Shown: positions 58,738 through 61,556 of the stretch, one piece after another
How positions within the stretch are numbered: position 1 is the first letter of the stretch
Layout of the letters: each line of letters begins with the position of its first letter
NCBI RefSeq assembly: GCF_001767295.1
Contig: NZ_CP014944.1
Location: forward strand, 2,232,001-2,296,000
Length of the DNA stretch: 64,000 nucleotides
From: Colwellia sp. PAMC 20917
GTDB lineage: Bacteria > Pseudomonadota > Gammaproteobacteria > Enterobacterales > Alteromonadaceae
Direction of reading: 5' to 3'
The notes under the pieces: generated by a model
Database searches by the model: none
Seen by the model: the letters and a program-made list of their open reading frames with translations, nothing else
Told to the model about the DNA's origin: nothing
Position numbers and translations under genes: made by a program

Positions 58738-59346
58738 TCATAATTGATCAGTTTGATCAGTTTGATCAGTTTGATTAGTTTGATTAGTGTGATAAGCGAA
58801 GGCATTCGGTAAAAAAATTTCAGCAACTAATAAAGGTTTATCATGCAGCATAAACGTTGAACGCCGTCCCCAGAGCTCAGTTTTAACCGGTAATTTAAGA
58901 TGTCGCGCTAGTGCTGATACGGTAGTGGTTGGAGAAAAAGACGAGATTTCAATGCATTTACGGGTTAACTCTTTTTTGCTAAACAGCACCTGTCCTAACG
59001 ATTGATTACCTAAGTGTGCTAACTGCTGCTCTTCACCGGTTAAGCTTTTTAAAGGCAGTAAACTGCGGGCAAAGACTTGTGGCACATTGTCGCAATATAA
59101 TATCACCTCACGTACTAACACTTGTTCACCTACATTAATGTCTGCCGTTGCTTCTTCTCTTGTGCAAGGCTGAATTTTTTGCCCTAAGACTTCAACACGA
59201 AAATGTTGGCAACATTGACTTAATCGAGCAGTCAACGAGCTTGGGTCGAGTAACCAACTTAATAGCGTTTCATTAAGCGATACTCCTAAAGGAGACTGCC
59301 ATGCTGTATCGATAGTAATGGGAAATAATGGATGCGACTGGGTCAT
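58738..59346 (-). CDS. ubiC: Chorismate lyase UbiC with repeat tail
   Basis: Splits chorismate into 4-hydroxybenzoate and pyruvate, the first committed step to ubiquinone. 202 residues against 165 in E. coli. Conserved parts include [27 protein letters not shown] and [20 protein letters not shown], which hold the Arg and Glu residues of the active site. The last 17 residues are a run of TNQ/TDQ triplets encoded by a nine-base tandem repeat and lie outside the enzyme fold. First gene of the ubiC-ubiA pair. Confidence 0.93.
58744..58788 (+). repeat. Nine-base tandem repeat in the ubiC 3' end
   Basis: Three TTGATCAGT units and two TTGATTAGT units in a row, in frame, giving Thr-Asp-Gln and Thr-Asn-Gln triplets on the minus strand. 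Unit gain or loss keeps the ubiC frame. Confidence 0.95.
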
Positions 59347-59654: not shown

Positions 59655-60047
59655 ATGAAAAATACCTTATTAATATTAGCGACATTATTGTCGTTCTCTT
59701 TTCCTTTATCTTCAGCAAAAGCGGCGGACTATGCTTACTTTGGTTTTGAACCCGCTATTATCACTAACTATGTAGCGGTAAAAAAGAAACTCGGCTATGT
59801 TCGTCTCACCGTTGAATTGATGATTGAAGATTCGGCAAATTATGAAACGGTTGAGCATCATGCACCGTTATTACGCGATGCTATTATTGCTATTATTGGT
59901 CAGCAACCTGAAGCAAAAGTAAAATCGATTAATGGTCGCCACGAAATCCAGCGTTTATGTGAAGAAAAAGTGAAGAGTCTTTTGACACAAGAAACAGGTC
60001 AACCGCTAATTAAAAAATTGTTATTTACGCAGTGGTTAGACAACTAA
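59655..60047 (+). CDS. FliL-like periplasmic protein
   Basis: 130 residues: a signal peptide (ILATLLSFSFPLSSAKA) and a FliL-type domain (YFGFEPAIITNYVAVKKKLG, LRDAIIAIIGQQPEAKVKSI, IQRLCEEKVKSLL). True FliL is an anchored flagellar motor protein; this copy has a cleavable-looking signal and lies beside ubiC, away from flagellar genes, as in related bacteria. A motor role is therefore unproven. A strong terminator follows. Confidence 0.85.
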   Translation: MKNTLLILATLLSFSFPLSSAKAADYAYFGFEPAIITNYVAVKKKLGYVRLTVELMIEDSANYETVEHHAPLLRDAIIAIIGQQPEAKVKSINGRHEIQRLCEEKVKSLLTQETGQPLIKKLLFTQWLDN

Positions 60048-60065: not shown

Positions 60066-60099
60066 CCGTAGGTTGGTAAAACTCAACCTACGGTTTTTT
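60066..60099 (+). terminator. Intrinsic terminator after the FliL-like gene
   Basis: CCGTAGGTTG and CAACCTACGG with an eight-base loop, then TTTTTT. Confidence 0.93.
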
Positions 60100-60105
60100 A
60101 ATAAA

Positions 60106-60790
60106 GACCTAATGCCTTTTCATCAATAACACCTTGACTGCTGCTAACAAGCAGCCACTAACAAACAGCCGCTGACTAAGCCTAATCTGAATAAGCGCGC
60201 AGTATTTGCCGTATTAACCGGTAAAACATCAGCGTAGACTAGAACCTAGCCCTGTTGCTATAGACCTAATGCCTTTTCATTAATAACACGTTGACTGCTG
60301 CTAACAAACAGCCGCTGACTAAGCCTAATCTGAATAAGCGCGCAGTATTTGCCGTATTAACCGGTAAAACATCAGCGTAGACTAGAACCTAGCCCTGTTG
60401 CTATAGACCTAATGCCTTTTCATTAATAACACGTTGACTGCTGCTAACAAACAGCCACTTACTAATCCTAACTCGAATAAGCGCGCAGTATTTGCCATCA
60501 TATTAACCGGCAAAACATTAACCTAGCCCTGTTGATACAGGTCTAATGCCTTTTCATCAACAACACCTTGACTGCCGCTAACAAACAGCCGCTGAATAAG
60601 CGCGCAGTATTTGCCGTATTAACCGGTAAAACATCAGCGTAGACTAGAACCTAGCCCTGTTGCTATAGACCTAATGCCTTTTCATTAATAACACGTTGAC
60701 TGCTGCTAACAAACAGCCACTGACTAATCCTAATAAGTGCGCAGTATTTGCCATATTAACCGGTAAAACATCAGCGTAGCCCAGTAAAAG
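60106..60790 (-). repeat. Tandem copies of the glpG 3' end
   Basis: Five direct units, starting at 60106, 60263, 60406, 60540 and 60668 (lengths about 157, 143, 134, 128 and 120 bases). The last is the true glpG end; the other four lie beyond its stop. On the minus strand each unit encodes the last membrane helix (YADVLPVN.ANTA.L...SGC and LLAAVNVLLMKRH plus stop). Three of the four extra units keep this frame open; the first (60106) is shifted by an internal duplication. All four have Arg where glpG has its catalytic His. They have no start codon of their own. Confidence 0.92.
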
Positions 60791-61543
60791 CCAAAACAGT
60801 AAAAAGCCAATAATGGGCTTAGAGATCATTAAACCTTTTTCAGGTGCTAGCCAGCCATACCACCAAACATAACCCACTAAGCCATAAACCACACCAGACA
60901 GGCCGCCAAAGTTAGGACCTGAAACCATAAACTGCCCGAGATTAGAGACCAGTGCGGTGATCAAAAATAAATTAATTAACGCCCCCTTCCCTAAAGTCCG
61001 TTCAACACTGCCACCTAATTGCCACCACCACATAGTATTAAAGACAATATGTAACCATGAAAAATGAAACAGGGCGGGCCCTAAAAGACGTAATGGAGAA
61101 TCAAAAAAGGCCTCGATCGTTAACTTAGGATAGAAATGTAATAATTCAAAAGTCGGTCGAGCGAAACCCAACAAGCTCGCGATAAAAACTAACCAGCACA
61201 AAGCAAAAACAGTTAAGGTTACCACACCGGCATGAGCCAAAAATTGCTGTTTAAAGCTTGTTATTAATGATGGAGAGTTGTCCTGAACTTGTGAAACTTG
61301 TCCGCTTTGCCATGCAGCTTGTTGATATTTTTCTTGGTAAGGATCGGCAATAAATTCAGCAAAAATTTCTTTTGCTTGGTCTATTTTATTGCTTGCACAG
61401 TAAATAACATAGTCACTATCATACTTTTGTACTTTAGCATCGATATCTAAACTGGTTAAATAATTCGCAAACAACAAGGCAATGTTATGTTGTTTAACTT
61501 GTACTAACGGACTTAGCTCATCCGCTGAATTATATTCCGACAT
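60671..61543 (-). CDS. glpG: Rhomboid protease GlpG
   Basis: Intramembrane serine protease of the inner membrane. 290 residues: a cytoplasmic N-terminal domain (about 15-95), then six spans with WLHIVFNTMWWWQLGG, FGGLSGVVYGLVGY (catalytic Ser 216) and MANTAHLLGLVSG (catalytic His 269). The Ser-His distance of 53 equals that of E. coli GlpG (201 and 254). ATG 61543 is preferred to TTG 61552. It follows glpE by 13 bases, as in the E. coli glpEG unit. Its 3' end has been copied in tandem downstream. Confidence 0.95.
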   Translation of the reverse strand: MSEYNSADELSPLVQVKQHNIALLFANYLTSLDIDAKVQKYDSDYVIYCASNKIDQAKEIFAEFIADPYQEKYQQAAWQSGQVSQVQDNSPSLITSFKQQFLAHAGVVTLTVFALCWLVFIASLLGFARPTFELLHFYPKLTIEAFFDSPLRLLGPALFHFSWLHIVFNTMWWWQLGGSVERTLGKGALINLFLITALVSNLGQFMVSGPNFGGLSGVVYGLVGYVWWYGWLAPEKGLMISKPIIGFLLFWLLLGYADVLPVNMANTAHLLGLVSGCLLAAVNVLLMKRH

Positions 61544-61556
61544 TATGCTCAACTAT

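Follow-up and report, generated by a model that had tools for sequence, protein, structure and literature searches.

The rhomboid protease gene glpG of Colwellia sp. PAMC 20917 is followed behind its stop codon by four head-to-tail copies of its own 3' part, each about 100-130 nt long and separated by short spacers, that continue up to a hairpin terminator. The sister species Colwellia hornerae has six such tail copies behind its glpG. It is very likely that the array is a tandem duplication of ancestral origin that has been tolerated, whose copies have been kept alike by unequal recombination and whose size has been changing since.

In the window, by which we mean the whole 64,000-nucleotide stretch analysed here, glpG is intact as judged by its open reading frame and Pfam domains (60671-61552, minus strand). 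The start is listed as TTG, with an in-frame ATG three codons later, and the product of 293 aa contains the Rhomboid (E 8.3e-25) and Rhomboid_N (E 1.1e-10) domains. The translation includes both GGLSG and NTAHLLGL. With its Rhomboid domain, the Ser in GxSG, and the His in the last helix the protein is a rhomboid protease of the GlpG type, the roles of the two residues being those known for GlpG. Reading of the sequence places the His of NTAHLLGL at codon 272 (CAC, 60737-60739, minus strand), and from the known GlpG mechanism we take it to be the catalytic one. A spacer (60643-60670, minus strand, by sequence reading) separates the glpG stop from the first copy. The hairpin (60066-60093, not assigned to a strand; z -3.16) lies between the array and a convergent fliL-like gene (59655-60047, plus strand; Pfam FliL E 3.4e-15), and the two share it as terminator; it resembles a terminator on the plus strand, where it has a T run, and does so less on the minus strand.

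The four tandem copies of the glpG 3' end that a preliminary description had reported are borne out by direct reading and by repeat finders (TRF: score 854, period 143, 4.6 copies). All are on the minus strand, and we number them from W1, nearest to glpG (60543-60642), over W2 (60409-60529) and W3 (60266-60380) to W4, the farthest (60109-60237), their terminal stop codons being at 60543-60545, 60409-60411, 60266-60268, and 60109-60111, respectively. It had also been described correctly that Arg replaces the catalytic His in every copy (CGC for CAC; Arg codons at 60600-60602 in W1, 60481-60483 in W2, 60338-60340 in W3, and 60195-60197 in W4) and that three of the four keep the frame and the MKRH-stop, namely W1 to W3, while the frame of W4 is broken by an internal duplication of 14 nt. 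W4 continues into the terminator as the unduplicated glpG of Colwellia sp. MB3u-41 does. The claim that the copies are closer to one another than to glpG holds for W1, W3, and W4 (94-96% mutual identity, 82-88% to glpG) but not for W2, which is the copy closest to the gene (90.3%, and 81-85% to the other copies). The array sequence has a single location in the 4.68-Mb genome.

The locus was compared in relatives, as had been proposed. Of 40 whole genomes searched with glpG (the own genome, five others of the genus, and 34 further ones), two had pieces of the glpG 3' end in addition to the gene itself, namely the own genome and that of C. hornerae ACAM 607. In addition, the DNA behind glpG was searched at 110 loci (L042-L121, n=80; L002-L031, n=30) for matches to the final 200 nt of the respective gene. 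For L042-L121 up to 2.5 kb behind glpG was read, with shorter stretches of 497 nt at L089, 632 nt at L099, and 1491 nt at L055; for L002-L031 the stretch was about 1.5 kb. Tail matches were obtained at L002, the own locus with its four copies, and at L003 and L042, which both represent C. hornerae with its six; the other 107 loci do not contain tail copies within the stretch read behind the gene. In the same 200-nt search the array is absent from MB3u-41, DT_21, and the 77 other glpG loci of the set L042-L121. MB3u-41 is the closest species without the array (89% protein identity), and its glpG goes straight into the terminator. All six C. hornerae copies (H1-H6) retain the His and have a TGA four codons further on. 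The change in copy number that had been anticipated is thus seen as four versus six copies, which is minisatellite-like variation between two species.

The array seems to be older than the two species. At one site beside the His codon six extra bases are found in all six C. hornerae copies and in three of the four window copies, W1 having a deletion over this site, and the insertion is missing from glpG of both species and from both outgroup genes. Because this insertion is common to copies of both species, the array should predate their split. The simplest reading of these sequences is that one ancestral tail copy had acquired the insertion by the time the species separated, and that the differing lesions came later.

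The columns were compared one by one for the glpG genes of both species, their ten copies, and two outgroup genes. The block of codons 259-276, with His-272 and the insertion site in it, contains seven sites at which the genes agree against the copies and two species-wise, homogenised sites, compared to none and eight, respectively, in codons 277-294. The contrast between these blocks (Fisher p 0.0023) is indicative, as the classes were set post hoc and the sites are linked and not independent. In both species the last about 17 codons of glpG resemble the copies of the own species, which supports the recombination or gene conversion that had been suggested earlier. A deletion of 1 nt is common to C. 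hornerae glpG and H1-H5 but not H6, and turns the end of the C. hornerae GlpG from MKRH into MKGTRS. Similarly, window glpG shares one change with W2 and W3 that W1, W4, all C. hornerae copies, and both outgroups do not have. In the last block the glpG genes of the two species differ in 12 of 24 columns, whereas each of the 16 preceding blocks of 54 columns has 2-11 differences. The block with the His and the insertion site does not show a trace of exchange except possibly at codon 264, where C. hornerae glpG and H1 have a common state. From the species-wise likeness of tail and copies it follows that in each species the end of glpG changes in concert with the copies, with the catalytic block standing outside. 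Judged from these sequence patterns, an exchange between gene and copies is supported, in whichever direction it runs.

For the origin and upkeep of the array we infer an order of events in which recombination would be the mechanism, selection would decide what persists, and the array itself would be without function. A tandem duplication of about 130-140 bp would have happened in the ancestor shared by C. hornerae and the window Colwellia, one of its ends lying within glpG and the other in the gap ahead of the terminator. The full glpG would have stayed whole and a promoterless tail copy would have been placed behind it, and thus the duplication could be tolerated by selection. Unequal recombination or slippage would then have let the array grow and shrink, to four copies here and six in C. 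hornerae. The exchange that homogenises the copies within a species would also reach the last about 17 codons of glpG, and exchanges carrying the catalytic block into the gene were presumably purged by selection. An unstable by-product had been one of the two options considered in the preliminary description, and the exchange traces together with the differing copy number speak for it. It might be held against a by-product that the array has persisted beyond the split of the species, with as many as seven tail copies if that of the gene is counted, and so perhaps for longer than a useless duplication should, and that the frame is still intact in three of the four window copies. A derivation of the spacer from the first arm of the terminator was considered because it is suggestive by eye, and was rejected: one of eight comparisons clearly beat the shuffles (38/5000), the rest giving 234-3932/5000.

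The other option was that the array is a reservoir for switching glpG off. In that case sequence donated by the copies would turn glpG into an inactive form and later restore it, like in a phase-variation switch. The gene and the array do trade sequence, and any of the copies would inactivate or alter the last helix, by the Arg in all four window copies and by the TGA in all six of C. hornerae. However, the inactivating lesion is not the same in the two species (Arg versus a retained His with a TGA behind it), the exchange traces end 3' of the catalytic block, and glpG does not have an inactive, copy-type His region in either of the array-bearing species, each represented by one genome. Also, the copies are near-uniform within each species and do not form a varied repertoire. 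Because the lesion differs between the species and the exchange stops short of the catalytic block we reject the switch, to which we give very little probability. Based on one genome per species the array is probably not a switch, and rare or reversible switching might occur in populations. A function at the RNA level seems unlikely as well, although somewhat easier to imagine. The array sits between glpG and its terminator, is probably transcribed, and has been retained in two species, and it could therefore be a long 3' untranslated region or a source of small RNAs that sets the stability of the glpG mRNA or insulates fliL. However, the units fold no better than shuffled sequences (z -1.07 to +0.30 for six of the ten units), none of 28 pairs in the alignment fold has compensatory changes on both sides, Rfam does not give a match up to E 1, and the next relatives live without the array. 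The conserved fold with compensatory changes that distinguishes a structured RNA element was looked for in the units and not found. Small proteins from the copies were also considered and discarded, given that the open reading frame at 60409-60513 (minus strand, W2) needs a TTG start that W1, W3, and W4 lack and that the C. hornerae copies carry the TGA.

The least probable explanation, which we regard as extremely remote, is that the array is an artefact of assembly or arose separately by duplication in each of the two species. The C. hornerae assembly looks like a short-read assembly according to its NODE name, and its copy number may therefore be off. In contrast, the window genome is a single contig, and the two separate assemblies contain units that differ in sequence but have one insertion in common and related spacers. 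An assembly error, which the preliminary description had named as a possible refutation, is unlikely because the array recurs in the independent assembly of the sister species.

Tandem arrays with a period of at least 40 were counted at 20 places of 20 kb each outside the window, the open reading frames of the whole survey being mechanically derived. The window genome contains 15 arrays in these 400 kb, all of them mostly non-coding and with periods of 48-378. Mostly non-coding arrays in the other genomes, which were sampled with 184-400 kb each and include two MAGs, number two in 400 kb (G018), zero in 200 kb (G017), three in 200 kb (G012), zero in 200 kb (G005), two in 184 kb (G004), and six in 306 kb (MB3u-41). 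C. hornerae has nine in 322 kb, a density inflated by contig ends, as its sample starts at contig starts and five of the nine arrays are at most 600 nt away from one. A constant unit size with a mode near 136-149 seemed likely at first but the wider sample gave the broad spread of 48-378. Loss of SbcD or MutS as the cause of the repeat richness was dismissed, both being found in all six genomes of the genus.

An earlier survey of gene tails covered the glpG neighbourhoods and the window only (844 open reading frames). Further repeated gene tails, which support the by-product reading by pointing to a like process at other loci, are present at L131 and L132 in the own genome, L189 and L190 in MB3u-41, and L204 in G012. 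At L131:800-1119 the last 45 nt of a gene for 483 aa are repeated together with downstream DNA, with two extra copies in the own genome and one in C. hornerae. At L132:4313-4639 the tail of an ABC-transporter-like ATPase gene forms a tandem repeat that also includes an inverted-repeat-like element; for the repeat inside this array the own genome gave a count of 120 matches and the sister species many, and a big complex intergenic tandem array at L128:13233-14748 matches the same dispersed family. By whole-genome matching, the glpG array is not part of such a dispersed repeat family. In C. hornerae, a tandem duplication of 148 bp (L042:6949-7241, 97% alike) spans the end of ubiC and the start of ubiA, and MB3u-41 has a spaced repeat of 149 bp at the ubiC/ubiA junction. 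In the window the last codons of ubiC, the chorismate lyase gene, are formed by a 9-bp repeat with 5.6 copies, TTGATCAGT (58744-58793), 1.3 kb from the glpG array. It is conceivable, though rather doubtful, that this Colwellia branch has an unusually active copying of gene ends behind genes at many loci, and that such arrays feed changes back and become engines of C-terminal change, as the C. hornerae GlpG might have gone from MKRH to MKGTRS in step with its array.

The glpG array would illustrate clearly how a partial duplication in nature can persist by leaving the gene whole and can age as an array across a species split. Since the exchange with glpG stops at the border of the catalytic block, the locus offers a small system in which to examine how far unequal recombination and selection reach in bacteria, and it cautions that arrays of partial copies are not always switches. 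Searches of the open-access PMC literature did not list a publication about the glpG array or about arrays of gene tails in Colwellia. The rtT repeats behind tyrT of Escherichia coli also consist of a gene's 3' end in tandem with a spacer, and the glpG array resembles them in repeating gene end and spacer behind the gene, but there the gene encodes a tRNA and here a protein. Silent cassettes as in pilE/pilS and vlsE supply a surface protein gene with a large variety of functional alleles. Like these, the glpG copies are partial, promoterless, and recombine with the expressed gene; unlike these, they are near-identical and inactivating instead of a varied functional repertoire, and the exchanged part is confined to the last few codons, about 17. 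With head-to-tail units mostly outside genes, the array belongs to the bacterial intergenic tandem repeats. Those with changing copy number are well known, for example the MIRU-VNTR of Mycobacterium tuberculosis, and some VNTR loci affect the expression of neighbouring genes, such as the repeats upstream of fpg1 (PMC2734929). In both kinds of array the tandem units are intergenic, measure from tens to roughly a hundred bases, and change in copy number, but the glpG array is built from the 3' end of the gene beside it and trades sequence with that gene, and its difference in copy number is known between two species and not within a population. Subirana and Messeguer described bacterial tandem repeats of constant size, with units of 20-21 or 52 nt, and according to their paper (PMC8161180) some lineages are rich in non-coding tandem arrays and their relatives poor, which is similar here. 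In contrast to the constant size given there, the 15 non-coding arrays of the own genome have periods of 48-378 nt. Tandem intergenic repeats are therefore already known, and it is the gene exchanging sequence with copies of its own tail that is the noteworthy feature here.
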